Below are positions 6,007-34,387 of a DNA stretch of 42,991 bases, in pieces (the first letter of the stretch is position 1; each line of letters opens with the position of its first letter). Source of the stretch: Methanobrevibacter sp. (GTDB taxonomy: Archaea; Methanobacteriota; Methanobacteria; Methanobacteriales; Methanobacteriaceae); the NCBI GenBank assembly GCA_017473945.1, contig JAFUIW010000035.1:1-42991 (forward strand). Reading direction: 5' to 3'. The notes beneath the pieces were generated by a model. The model worked only from the letters and a program-made list of their open reading frames with translations, was not told the origin of the DNA and did not search any database. The position numbers were made by a program, and so were the translations under genes.

Positions 6007-7998
6007 TTATTGAATTCTTTCGCCGATTTCAGCATTTTCATCCGGTGTGAGTAATGCTCCAGACTCACCGGTTGCTAAAATCATCCCTTCGGATAATGTT
6101 CCGAATAGTTTTGCTGGCTGTAGGTTAGCCACTACACATACTTTTCTGTCGATTAACTCATCTGGAGAGTAGAATTTTGCAAGACCTGCAACGATTTGTC
6201 TTGGTTTTTCCTCACCGATATCGACTTGCAATTTTAATAATTTGTCTGATTTTTCTATTTTTTCAGCTTCTTTTACTTGTCCAATTTTAATTACAACTTC
6301 ATCAAATTGATCAATACTTATTAAGTCACTCATATTTTCATCCTCATTATTTTCTTTTAAATTTTCCTGTAATTTTGCTTTTTGAGCTTCGATTTCTTTA
6401 TCTTCAATTTTTTTGAATAATGGTTTGGCCTTATTTATTTCATGGCCTGCAGGCAATGCTGTTTTTGCATCCTCCCAGTTGTCCAAACTTCCAAGGTTCA
6501 TAATCTCAGCAATCTTGTCCGCCTTTGTTGGAAGGAACGGTTTTAACATGTATGCCAGGGTTTTTGCCAGTTGATTTGATAAGTATAAGCAGTTTGCCGC
6601 TTTAACCTTGTCTTCCTTAACGGCTTTCCAAGGTTCTGCATCATTGAAGTATTTGTTTCCTTTTTTGGCTACCTTGAATATTTCAAGCAATGCTTCCCTG
6701 AATTCGAAATTAGCTATATATTCACCTGCCTTGTCAGGAAGCGCTTCAATGGCCAGTCTGAACTGCTCGTCTTCATCAGTTGGATTTGTATATTCGGGGA
6801 TTTTGCTGTCAAATTGTTTTTTGGTGAATACAAATGTTCTGTGAAGGAAGTTTCCGATTACATCTGCCAGTTCATCATTGTTTCTTCTCTGGAAGTCATC
6901 CCATGAGAAGTCTGAATCCTTGTTTAAAGGAGCGTTGATTGTCAGGTAGTATCTTAATAAATCAGGGTCATAATCCTTTACAAAATCAGCAATCCAGATA
7001 ACCCAGTTTTTACTTGTAGACATCTTTTCCCCTTCAAGGGAGAGGAATTCACCCGCATAAATCATGTCAGGCAACTTGCAGCCATATGCCTTTAGAAGTC
7101 CAGGCCAGAAGATTGAATGGTGGTAGATAATATCCTTACCTATGAAATGAACGACAAAGTCATTCCAATATTCTTCCCATTTACTGCCAGATTGCTTTGA
7201 CCATTGTGATGCTGATGAGATATAACCCAAGAATGCTTCAATCCAAACGTATAATACTTTACCTTTAGCCTCATCCAACGGTACAGGAATACCCCAATCC
7301 ATATCACGGGTTAAAATCCAGTCATTTAATCCTTCTTCCAACCAGTTGGATGCATAGTTTTTCACATTTGCAGGCAAGTTATCATTGTTGTTGATGTATT
7401 CCTTAAGGTCATCTTCCAGTTCAGACAATTTGAATGCATACTGGAAAGTGTCCTTGATTATTGGAGTGGTACCGCATGTGATACAGTGCGGTTCATCAAG
7501 TTCTGTAGGGTCAAGTGCCTTTCCACATTTTTCACAGTGGTCACCTCTTGCTTCAGACCCGCAAACCGGACATAATCCTTCTACATACCTGTCAGGCAGG
7601 AACTTGTTACAGTTCGGACAGTACAGCTGTTGGATATCTTCCCTGTAGATATATCCGTCATCATATAATTTTTTAAAGAAGTTCTGAGCCAGTTCGTAGT
7701 GGGCTTCATCAGTGGTTCTTGTAAAATTGTCCAATGAGATGTTCATTGATTCAACGTCACGGACAATCATGTCGTGATATCTTTTAGAAATTTCAATCGG
7801 TTTTTTGTTTTCTTTATCTGCCTTAACTGCAATTGGAGTTCCGTGCTCGTCGGTTGCACAGACCATCAGCACGTCATTGCCGACCATTCTGTTATATCTT
7901 GCATAGATATCTGCAGGCAGATATGTGGAACGGATATGGCCTAAATGACATGGTCCATTTGCGTAAGGAAGTGCACATGAAATAAAAATTTTTGACAT
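6007..7998 (-). CDS. metG: Methionyl-tRNA synthetase with C-terminal tRNA-binding domain
   Basis: A class I synthetase charging tRNA-Met with methionine. Visible features are the HIGH signature as HLGH (residues 18-21), two zinc knuckles in the connective domain (CPNC..CPVC and CEKC..CITC), and the KMSTS loop (GEKMSTSKN). The C-terminal ~105 residues are an EMAP/Arc1p-like tRNA-binding domain, after an acidic linker rich in Glu and Asn. The total of 663 residues is usual for the fused archaeal/bacterial form. Start ATG 7998 is preceded by GGGGATT. It is the first gene of a unit with DUF530 and HTH genes. Confidence 0.97.
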
Positions 7999-8371
7999 TT
8001 AATTAATCCCCTCAATTATTTTAAACATGATATAATTATGTTACTCATATATAATAAAACTAATATTTTTAACAGCGTTATAATATGAAGAAATAAAATA
8101 AAAATAAAAATAAAATATATCTATTAAAAGTTGTTAAAAAAAGATTTAAAAACTTAATAAAGGAAAGGGAATTGAAATAAACAACCCTTACCAATATTAA
8201 AAGAGAATCACAAACTATGATTAAATATACACATCAATTAAATTATTTTATAAACATATTATTTATAATTTTCCACTGAAATTTAATAGTAATACTTTTT
8301 ATAATATTAGTAATAAATAATTATCTTCTGGAATTTATAAAAATTTCAATAAAACAAAGAGGAAAAACACT

Positions 8372-8488
8372 ATGAAAAAAAGACACATCAAAATCTCCTC
8401 TTTAGGAGGGTTGGGTTTGGAAGCAGTGATTTTAGATAGCATTTTCTTTTTAGCTGTCACATACTGTTGGTATTTAATCCAACAGTAA
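8372..8488 (+). CDS. Possible 38-residue hydrophobic peptide
   Basis: ATG 8372 is preceded by AAAGAGG with 9 bases of spacing, a good ribosome site in otherwise AT-rich spacer. The frame encodes 38 residues: a basic N-terminus (MKKRHIKISS), a Gly-rich stretch (LGGLGLEA), then a hydrophobic segment with one Cys and aromatic residues (FFLAVTYCWYLIQQ) to a TAA stop. It looks like a short single-span membrane peptide or a precursor peptide. The last codons and stop are covered by a 9-bp stem (8463-8471 with 8480-8488, approximately). No processing enzyme lies next to it. I do not recognise a family. Confidence 0.4.
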   Translation: MKKRHIKISSLGGLGLEAVILDSIFFLAVTYCWYLIQQ

Positions 8489-8627
8489 CCTACTGCAATT
8501 GAGATGATTTTTTAAAAAAGCAAAGACAGGTTATAGTTTTCAAGTTGAGAAAACGATGAAAAAGTAACAATGAAGCGGAATTTTAATGTGTGACATAATT
8601 TGTGGATTTAGAAATGAATTTCAATTA

Positions 8628-8652
8628 GGGTGGAACTTTCCATCCTCCACCC
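8628..8652. other. Hairpin upstream of priL
   Basis: A perfect 7-bp stem (GGGTGGA with TCCACCC) encloses an 11-base loop. It is GC-rich against an AT-rich background and ends 76 bases before the priL start. It could be an RNA element in a long priL leader, the end of a small RNA, or an operator. Confidence 0.45.
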
Positions 8653-8728
8653 AACTTTTCAAAACAAATTCAATTTTGCTTTTTAAAATGAGTTAGCTAT
8701 TTAATATATAAAATAAAAAGTTTAAAAC

Positions 8729-10060
8729 ATGGCTGAAGTATCCTATATCAACCCATTGTCAAACGAAGGAAGACAAATCATAAGACAATACGGCGATTTG
8801 AATCAGATTTTCGAAGAAGATGAAATGCTAATAGAAAGCATTACCCATACAACAAACCAAAGAATATCTGATGACTCTTTAATTCCAAAATCCTATGCTG
8901 ATTATGCAATGAAACGTATGCAATGGGCTATTGAAAAAAAGAACAATAAGAATTTTACACAGGCCGAATTCGAATACCTGACAAATTCAGACCTGTTCAT
9001 GCAGGATGTAGTGATATTTCACATCTTATGCCAGGCAATAGCTATCCAGTTCAATACAGGCTCCCGTGAAACAAGATTATTCGTCGAATCACAGGGAACA
9101 CTAATTTTAGAGAGACTTGCAAAAATACCTCCAATGTCAAGGGCAGAAATCATTGATGAAGTTCTCGATGAGGTCAAAGTGGACGGATCAATTCACTGGA
9201 AATCCCTAAGGGATGTTGTGGCATCAAAAAAACTCAAGCTTACAGATTTGCTGATAGACAACGGAGATGTGATTCTCCAACAGGATGACTTTCTGGAAAG
9301 ATTTGCATCAGAATTTACAGACAGAAGCCCAGACCGGATGTATGGAATACTAATCGGAGACAGCGTTAAGGAACAAATCCTGTCAAGACTTATAATGCAA
9401 AAGACAGAAGAATACATTGCAAGAATCAAGGAAATGTCTGCAAGAATCGAGATTCACCCTGCAATCATTAAGATAGGTGAAGAGCTTAAAGACTTCATTC
9501 CGGAAGAGATAAGCAAATATAACCAATATTATGCCGGAAGCGGAGGACTGTTCGGTTCAGTTCAGGCTGGAAAACTGAATCCAGAAGCATTTCCACCATG
9601 CATTCAAGCAACTGTTGACGGCGTATCATCAGGAGGGCGTAACGATGCAATAGTGCTTCTGCTCACATCATTTGCATCATATGCAAGACTGTATCCAAGA
9701 ATATTTGCATCAGATGAAACCGTGAAAGTTTCAGATATGGATCCTGATTTATCCATTACTGAAAATGAGATTTTGCCGTTGATTTTTGATGCTGCAGACA
9801 ACTGTACACCACCTTTATTTGAAGACCAGCCACAGGAAAAAATAAATATCATATCAAAACTGGGTTTCGGAATGCACGACAGGGTCGACATCAACCACGA
9901 AGGTGAAACAAAATGGTACACTCCAATGAGCTGTGAGAAAATTAAAATTCACCTCCCACACCTATGCCATCCCGACAAGTCATGCAAAGGAATAAACAAT
10001 CCTCTATCCTGTTACGGACGTAAAAAATTCCAGTTGGACAAGGAAGCTCCTAAAGAATAA
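8729..10060 (+). CDS. priL: DNA primase large subunit PriL
   Basis: The regulatory, iron-sulfur subunit of the archaeal/eukaryotic-type DNA primase, which with PriS makes primers at the replication fork. The 443 residues have the usual helical N-terminal half and a C-terminal [4Fe-4S] domain. Cys 291 (FPPCIQATVDG), Cys 402 (SCEKIK), Cys 413 (LCHPDK) and Cys 428 (LSCYG) are the likely cluster ligands; Cys 359 and 419 are extra. No strong Shine-Dalgarno site precedes ATG 8729. The catalytic partner priS lies 1.4 kb downstream on the same strand, separated by two genes on the opposite strand. Confidence 0.95.
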   Translation: MAEVSYINPLSNEGRQIIRQYGDLNQIFEEDEMLIESITHTTNQRISDDSLIPKSYADYAMKRMQWAIEKKNNKNFTQAEFEYLTNSDLFMQDVVIFHILCQAIAIQFNTGSRETRLFVESQGTLILERLAKIPPMSRAEIIDEVLDEVKVDGSIHWKSLRDVVASKKLKLTDLLIDNGDVILQQDDFLERFASEFTDRSPDRMYGILIGDSVKEQILSRLIMQKTEEYIARIKEMSARIEIHPAIIKIGEELKDFIPEEISKYNQYYAGSGGLFGSVQAGKLNPEAFPPCIQATVDGVSSGGRNDAIVLLLTSFASYARLYPRIFASDETVKVSDMDPDLSITENEILPLIFDAADNCTPPLFEDQPQEKINIISKLGFGMHDRVDINHEGETKWYTPMSCEKIKIHLPHLCHPDKSCKGINNPLSCYGRKKFQLDKEAPKE

Positions 10061-34228: not shown

Positions 34229-34261
34229 ATTATAATCACAATTCGTTCTTTATTTAAAAAA

Positions 34262-34334
<73 letters not shown>

Positions 34335-34387
34335 AAAAAAAGTTAATTCAAATATCAAATATAATATTTGAACTTAGTACTATATAA

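Follow-up and report, generated by a model that had tools for sequence, protein, structure and literature searches.

A candidate type I toxin-antitoxin module with a divergent antisense RNA on the chromosome of Methanobrevibacter

The spacer between metG and priL on the chromosome of a Methanobrevibacter species is, to judge from its sequence, likely to carry a type I toxin-antitoxin module that consists of the mRNA of a small peptide and a divergent silencing RNA. Its copies comprise two conserved units, with coding conservation of the peptide, covarying helices in the mRNA, a conserved leader frame, and complementarity between RNA and leader that is specific to each copy. We infer that both RNAs are made, that translation of leader and peptide is coupled, that the peptide is harmful, and that loss of the RNA frees the peptide. 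The copies probably represent a type I family of Archaea, new within the searches made here, that joins a mok-like leader and a 5'-3' lock to a divergent RNA. As part of the same reading, paralogous pairs with diverged seeds would keep most antitoxins chiefly to their own mRNA.

In the proposed mechanism a strong promoter would drive a structured mRNA of ~330 nt that encodes a 23-residue hydrophobic peptide. The ribosome site of the peptide would be locked by a local hairpin with an anti-Shine-Dalgarno (anti-SD) strand and by pairing with the mRNA's own 3' end, and a ribosome translating the leader (from ATG 8372) through the locked site would open it. The divergent RNA of ~84 nt (minus strand, ~8238 to 8155) would pair over the ribosome site, start codon and first codons of the leader, which would stop leader translation and so keep the peptide off. 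Positions refer to the window, the whole stretch of 42,991 nucleotides that was analysed, which contains one tRNA (34261 to 34335). A search with Rfam gave no match at the spacer.

The peptide and its leader frame

An earlier note on this DNA had singled out a short frame in the spacer of 730 bp (7999 to 8728) that separates metG (minus strand) from priL (plus strand), genes whose identities are backed by Pfam. The frame runs on the plus strand from ATG 8372 to the TAA at 8486 to 8488, encodes 38 residues (MKKRHIKISSLGGLGLEAVILDSIFFLAVTYCWYLIQQ) and has a good ribosome site of the GAGG type (AGGA/GAGG, as GAGGA at 8359 to 8363) 8 nt upstream of the ATG. The note had also described a 9-bp hairpin (arms 8462 to 8470 and 8479 to 8487) and a T6 run (8508 to 8513). 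All of these features are present as it gave them, and the leader-frame test described below places the frame with its ribosome site beyond chance.

The frame that is conserved among relatives is shorter. Its start in the window, TTG 8417, aligns with an ATG in most relatives, and this homology is the basis on which the TTG was assigned as the start. The candidate toxin peptide (8417 to 8488, plus strand) has 23 residues (MEAVILDSIFFLAVTYCWYLIQQ) and is preceded by the SD sequence AGGAGG at 8404 to 8409. Among the 18 intact copies the peptide has 19 to 26 residues (an example from a relative is MVEMLLDCIIFLAVTYIPTYIG), and its best 19-residue hydropathy ranges from 1.29 to 1.97, with 1.92 for the window peptide. 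Across the family one aspartate is nearly invariant, and a threonine/serine-tyrosine pattern recurs. The peptide is hydrophobic and probably inserts into membranes. The earlier reading of the locus as a unit for a small membrane-type peptide holds, but with a different start and length, position 8372 being the start of the leader. Its architecture, size, hydrophobicity and pattern of decay are what suggest that the peptide may be toxic.

Coding conservation was evaluated in 20 copies, with the frameshifted G016_C7 excluded. In all 20 copies the peptide frame is open, with a homologous start, while every one of them has stops in the +1 frame and 15 also have stops in the +2 frame. Pooled pN/pS was 0.41 in frame and 0.64 and 1.35 in the other two frames, and 200 column shuffles gave a mean of 0.86 and a minimum of 0.41. 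Because RNA structure also limits change in this region, the value of 0.41 does not reflect pure protein selection. The earlier note had set conservation of a peptide against conservation of an RNA structure as alternatives; both are retained, the frame being open throughout while helices inside it covary.

The upstream part of the 38-residue frame behaves differently. An SD-led leader frame that stays open beyond the ribosome site and start of the peptide is present in 18 of the 19 complete family copies; when the leaders were shuffled 200 times, 0.51 copies on average and never more than 3 of 19 had such a frame. This set of 19, used for both the leader and the antitoxin tests, excludes G040_C38 and G058_C3, which are without the promoter side. 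Close relatives are included in the count (C53a, G024 and G027 are near-identical), so the 18 leader-positive copies are not independent. Their leaders start with ATG or TTG 42 to 52 nt upstream of the peptide start, and G018_C3 is the only complete copy without a standard leader start. The register relative to the peptide is frame 0 in 8 copies, frame 1 in 5 and frame 2 in 5, the leader residues are not conserved, and four leaders terminate within a few bases of the peptide start codon. Varying register and unconserved residues in a frame that is kept open are the signature of a leader that is translated but not selected for its product. The mok-like leader frame of the window (8372 to 8488, plus strand) is this 38-residue frame, which lies in the register of the peptide by chance.

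A stand-alone 38-residue peptide was dropped as a candidate because the leader is conserved neither in residues nor in register. As a protein query against 100 genomes, the 38-residue frame had matches in 10 at E values up to 1. At E < 0.001 only four genomes besides the window's own had a match (G045, G025, G018 and G058), and three of the four matches contain an internal stop. The idea that the product is a precursor peptide found no footing either, as the neighbours are metG and priL and nothing points to maturation. With five peptides as queries, Pfam gave only a subthreshold match (E 0.1), to the 38-residue frame, and NCBIfam gave none.

Structure and promoter of the mRNA

The toxin-like mRNA is predicted to span ~333 nt (~8328 to 8660, plus strand) and to be folded on itself. 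The fold of 8335 to 8665 has an energy of -84.3 kcal/mol (z -4.43). Single folds of 21 copies gave z values from -1.0 to -6.3, and the same helices recur in them. At 8395 to 8409 an anti-SD/SD element, CTCCT-CTTT-AGGAGG, covers the ribosome site of the peptide, and CTCCTCTTT is able to pair also with the AAAGAGG of the leader. Helix P2 (8423 to 8496) joins codons 3 to 5 of the peptide to bases just 3' of the frame, with GCAGT at 8423 to 8427 opposite ACTGC at 8492 to 8496 and GAAATGC/GCATTTC in relatives. Helix P3 (8435 to 8458) lies within the peptide frame, with GATAGC at 8435 to 8440 paired to GCTGTC at 8453 to 8458. Its variants across the copies are GACTGC/GCAGTC, GATGGC/GCCATC and GATAGC/GCTGTC, so that Asp-Cys, Asp-Gly or Asp-Ser accompanies Ala-Val or Ala-Ile on the opposite side. 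Helix P4 (8462 to 8487), evident from the sequence and from single folds, spans the end of the peptide frame.

RNAalifold returned no consensus fold on two MAFFT alignments. For this reason the copies were folded singly and covariation was counted on the pairs of a structure written by hand, not on a program consensus. In alignment A4, 88.8% of the P2 and P3 cells are paired, compared with 78.2 ± 1.2% in shuffled alignments and 31 to 50% when the two helices are slid along the sequence as controls. Cells changed on both sides numbered 28, versus 10.0 ± 2.2 in shuffles, and the covariation score was 0.397 versus 0.212. On another of the five measures, 7 pairs showed a double change in at least one copy, a count that 110 of 500 shuffles also reached.

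A second lock would be formed by the 3' end. A 3' hairpin and a complement of the peptide start region (8628 to 8660) were found in the folds and as inverted repeat I15, the complement, CCACCCAACTT (~8647 to 8657), facing 8404 to 8420. In most copies ACCATCAC stands opposite GTGATGGT or a near variant, and the partners change together: ACCCAAC/GTTGGGT in the window, TCCAAC/GTTGGA in G045 and ACCACAC/GTGTGGT in G025_C7. Own pairs of 3' end and start region outperformed reassigned ones across 21 copies (p = 0.0003), own pairing was matched in 2 of 120 reassignments inside the five-copy window-type subfamily, and the pairing is part of the minimum-energy fold in 16 of the 21 copies. Copy by copy, the energy of this duplex was mostly not significant against mononucleotide shuffles. 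Removal of the 3' end in silico from 18 copies (G016_C7, G040_C38 and G058_C3 were not included) freed the start region in 5 copies, closed it in 1, and raised the mean unpaired fraction from 0.31 to 0.35. With the start freed in only 5 of the 18 copies, folding gives no support for hok-style activation by trimming of the 3' end.

The earlier note had taken the hairpin and the T6 run to mark the end of a small transcription unit. The hairpin is the internal helix P4, and conservation continues as far as the 3' hairpin and complement at ~8628 to 8660; the T6 run was dropped as a terminator because conserved sequence goes on past 8513. Between these points lies a block (8528 to 8600, plus strand; AGGTTATAGTTTTCAAG ... 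GGAATTTTAATnTGTGACAT) that the alignment of copies places among the best-conserved parts of the family. Neither coding nor a shared helix accounts for the strong conservation of 8528 to 8600, and this block may be a binding site for a protein or for a further RNA.

The mRNA promoter, ATAGTAATACTTTTTATAAT (8286 to 8305, plus strand), has a score of 24.9 on a matrix whose construction included this very site, and would start transcription near 8325 to 8330. Its motif, GTAATACTTTWTATA (window 8286 to 8305; loci L038-L052), also occurs upstream of unrelated genes of the genus, some of which appear by eye to be pilin-like or efflux-like. A dedicated operator was considered for the near-palindrome TAATACTTTTTATAATAAAAGTAATA and dropped; because the same motif stands 5' of unrelated genes, the near-palindrome is read as a strong core promoter. 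In some copies this promoter scores in reverse too, at up to 18.0 compared with 17 to 26 forward, which makes the 5' end of the antitoxin RNA uncertain.

The candidate divergent RNA, its family and locus history

The decisive feature of the locus, a predicted divergent antisense RNA, was absent from the earlier note, in which the frame sits alone. A conserved RNA gene is predicted just upstream of the mRNA, and conservation runs ~170 nt past the frame. The candidate antitoxin RNA (8155 to 8240, minus strand) is ~84 nt long, with a predicted span of ~8238 to 8155 whose 5' end may lie ~20 nt further upstream, and is conserved in the 19 complete copies, back to back with the mRNA promoter. Its gene is divergent and does not overlap the mRNA, and its predicted end lies ~157 nt before the start of metG. 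Single folds leave a 5' seed unpaired and place hairpins on the 3' side, namely a small hairpin and a hairpin resembling an intrinsic terminator (8162 to 8192, minus strand) that is followed by a T-rich stretch. The latter was recognised from folds and from an alignment of antitoxin RNAs (A6) that covers the 13 of 18 matched by one search string. A BRE/TATA-like promoter, AAAATTATAAATA (8260 to 8272, minus strand), was located by alignment and by scoring the reverse strand with an archaeal consensus set by hand. In all 19 complete copies a site at this place ranks in the top three on the reverse strand; it is top or tied in 17 and second in the window copy. An antisense RNA that starts inside the mRNA was also considered, but no site for one recurs among the best two or three of the reverse strand in each copy.

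The 5' part of the RNA can pair with its own leader across the ribosome site, start and first codons. In the window the seed UUGAUGUGU (8229 to 8237, minus strand) matches 9 bp of the leader frame perfectly, at ACACAUCAA (8383 to 8391, plus strand), a target identified by duplex and seed-helix analysis, and the full own duplex has an energy of -34.8 kcal/mol. Own duplexes of the 19 copies range from -24.0 to -47.2 kcal/mol with a mean of -36.2, versus a mean of -19.4 for swapped partners. Each is stronger than the 60 shuffles of its RNA and three flank controls (the controls' mean was -14.7). The uninterrupted seed helix measures 8 to 15 bp, with a mean of 12.0 bp compared with 7.2 bp for swapped partners. 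The sum of own duplexes was reached by none of 200,000 permutations, which reassign partners only and hold fixed the compared regions, themselves picked after the alignment had been viewed; the same result was obtained on 17 less redundant copies, and kinship among the copies inflates the tests throughout. By row the own duplex was the strongest in 17 of 19 cases, and by column in 16 of 19. In the two exceptional rows, the C20 RNA slightly prefers the leader of G016 (-35.8 versus -30.9 kcal/mol with its own) and the G044 RNA prefers a leader of the C53a type (-34.1 versus -32.7).

Four copies are present in the window genome (G000). The three others, one on C20 and two on C53, were found by DNA search and are 67 to 71% identical to the window copy. 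The seed is TTGATGTGT in the window and ATCGGAATTTA in C20, and the copies on C53 have TTGGATGTTTGTT and TTGGATATTCGTT; seeds this different suggest that the four pairs are mostly independent of one another. An exception may be the C53b RNA, for which the C53a mRNA is a possible second target (-36.0 versus -38.6 kcal/mol for its own duplex). A Zeta_toxin-like gene (PF06414, E 1.1e-8; L021, 2402 to 2995, in G000:C53) lies on the other strand just past the 3' end of the C53a copy. The C20 copy has a radical SAM gene (Pfam) convergent to it, and sequence resembling that downstream of C20 was seen by eye at ten other aligned copies, including the partial G036_C99, and at G003.

A covariance model (R1), built on alignment A4 of 18 copies without G016_C7, G027_C65 and G040_C38, was run against 67 Methanobrevibacter genomes and matched 15 of them, with 22 matches in all (E 5.5e-18 to 1.8e-8). 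It gave no match in the other 52, many of which are incomplete. DNA search had already found 21 of the 22; the copy in G003 was added by the model and was examined separately from the copy sets. The DNA search had matches in 46 of the 67 genomes, mostly short promoter matches that were not counted as copies. Two further candidates were left out: the tblastn match G058_C23 proved false, lying within another gene, and G036_C99 aligned over its 3' part only. An order-wide search of 150 genomes from 19 genera, with filters that can lose weak matches, matched 15 genomes, all Methanobrevibacter. In the GTDB collection the pattern of the 3' block occurred at 10 loci, each under a Methanobrevibacter title; the titles name samples from roe deer and goat as well as one M. 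thaueri, and the RUG isolates among them are rumen genomes. The same pattern had no match in viral contigs, the element DNA had none in phage and plasmid records, and Rfam 15 had no match to the element.

The module occupies the metG-priL site in G000, G045, G018 and G058. Of 30 priL loci fetched, 25 were readable, the other 5 having no recognised priL start and not being judged, and 22 of the 25 are without the 3'-block string in up to 900 nt upstream. By priL sequence the closest relative is G003 (96% identical), whose spacer has no copy and is ~495 bp shorter. Direct repeats of at least 10 bases were not found in 7990 to 8735 of the window. A 40-bp stretch elsewhere in the window genome (G000:C12:5462-5501, L005) is 88% identical to window positions 8653 to 8692 upstream of priL. 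At G040:C38 (L061) the sequence is nearly identical to the copy of G049 from the leader on, and the promoter side consists of unrelated sequence, which may reflect recombination or an assembly join.

Three copies show decay of the kind that would be expected of such a module. A one-base deletion in G016 frameshifts the peptide while the divergent RNA is retained. By eye, G003 and G058_C3 lack the promoter region that separates the seed repeats; recombination between the direct repeats that seed and target form in the DNA would produce such a deletion. In the corresponding loci, L105 (G003:C1:65124-65230 region) and L059 (G058:C3), both promoters are gone and the antitoxin antisense abuts the peptide start.

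Alternative explanations and known systems

One possibility is that the same RNA-controlled architecture serves a peptide that is a useful regulator or membrane-stress protein instead of a toxin. Conservation of the peptide, with its near-fixed aspartate and threonine/serine-tyrosine pattern, would be in keeping with a useful product, as would fixed chromosomal sites such as metG-priL in four genomes and the lack of matches in the phage and plasmid records. However, layered translational locking is typical, in bacterial type I systems, of peptides that must not leak. Furthermore, the model left 52 of the 67 genus genomes (many incomplete) without a match, and G016 has kept the RNA while its peptide is broken. 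We consider a useful peptide unlikely. That the product is, as the earlier note had proposed, a stand-alone membrane or precursor peptide of 38 residues, with ATG 8372 as its start, is highly improbable: the frame is open with a ribosome site and shares the peptide register in 8 of the 18 leader-positive copies, but 10 are out of frame, the leader residues are unconserved, and the start that is conserved is 8417.

Slightly less credible again is a structured noncoding repeat, or a miniature mobile element, whose reading frame arose by chance. The sequence is indeed repeated, structured and variably present at metG-priL, the G003 spacer having no copy, but the coding pattern and distribution of stops, conservation of the SD and start, recurrence at orthologous sites, and the lack of direct repeats in 7990 to 8735 argue against such an element. 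The divergent RNA might also be thought the mere 5' leader of a neighbouring gene, here metG, toward which it is oriented in the window. We give this explanation the least credence, as the terminator-like hairpin and the match to the leader are kept in 19 copies despite differing outer flanks and the RNA is predicted to end ~157 nt ahead of the metG start.

The preferred reading, a type I module, has several counterparts among known systems. Type I toxins are small hydrophobic peptides, usually of < 60 residues, and the peptides here have 19 to 26 residues with coding conservation, next to a predicted RNA that is complementary to the peptide mRNA at the level of sequence. In hok/Sok the antitoxin is transcribed from the strand opposite the leader; here the predicted RNA gene is upstream and divergent. 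The likeness to hok/mok/Sok, both on plasmid R1 and in the related chromosomal systems, lies in a small membrane peptide, a self-folded mRNA with 5'-3' pairing, an overlapping leader whose translation would open the toxin start, and an antitoxin RNA aimed at the leader frame. The accessible text on hok describes a membrane peptide, a 5'-3' mRNA lock, a coupled leader and a leader-targeting RNA (PMC4147584, PMC8167048). The corresponding observations here are the leader that overlaps the toxin start (18 of 19 copies, versus 0.51 in shuffles) and the 5'-3' fold-back (p 0.0003 and 16 of 21 folds, with single-copy shuffles mostly not significant). Unlike hok/Sok, this locus has a divergent antitoxin RNA of partial complementarity and archaeal-type promoters; release by 3' trimming is unsupported by folding, and the peptide has no family match.

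A divergent antitoxin gene beside the toxin is what the locus shares with tisB/IstR-1, zorO/OrzO, shoB/OhsC and dinQ/AgrB of Escherichia coli, in which, as here, a short complementarity is directed to the 5' leader, away from the toxin start. The arrangement predicted here, a nonoverlapping divergent gene with short leader complementarity, is IstR-like. Sequestration of the toxin ribosome site, as proposed here, is described for tisB and zorO in the accessible text of the same sources (PMC4147584, PMC8167048). Similar paralogues with separate specificity recall OrzO versus OrzP. These systems belong to another domain of life, and the tisB standby site is described without the SD-led overlapping leader found here. 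The peptide family and gene arrangement of ldrD/rdlD are unlike those of this locus, and the two share an overlapping leader frame, whose coupling would here be analogous. For ldrD/rdlD of E. coli the accessible part of one source describes an overlapping leader, ldrX, coupled to the toxin (PMC8167048).

Like msoT1/msoA1 of Microcystis, which is bacterial, the locus is type I-like and outside the classical phyla. According to the accessible text of a 2025 paper (PMC12390103), Proteobacteria, Firmicutes and Tenericutes were the only phyla with known type I systems before that cyanobacterial case. TADB 3.0 scanned 532 archaeal genomes with a lower protein limit of 30 residues, as far as its accessible text states (PMC10767807), a limit that would exclude peptides of 19 to 26 residues. 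No report of an archaeal type I system was among the matches listed in our literature search, which drew on openly accessible text; with most of the subscription literature beyond it, absence from print is not proven.

If the reading is correct, this system of gut methanogens would show that Archaea, which differ from bacteria in promoters and membrane lipids, also have antisense control of killer peptides or evolved it independently. The natural compensatory variants, in defined sequences, make the pairing directly testable, and the module may represent a possible growth switch for methane-producing organisms of livestock. It would also combine two strategies that have been described separately in bacteria, the mok-like leader with its 5'-3' lock and the divergent antitoxin RNA.
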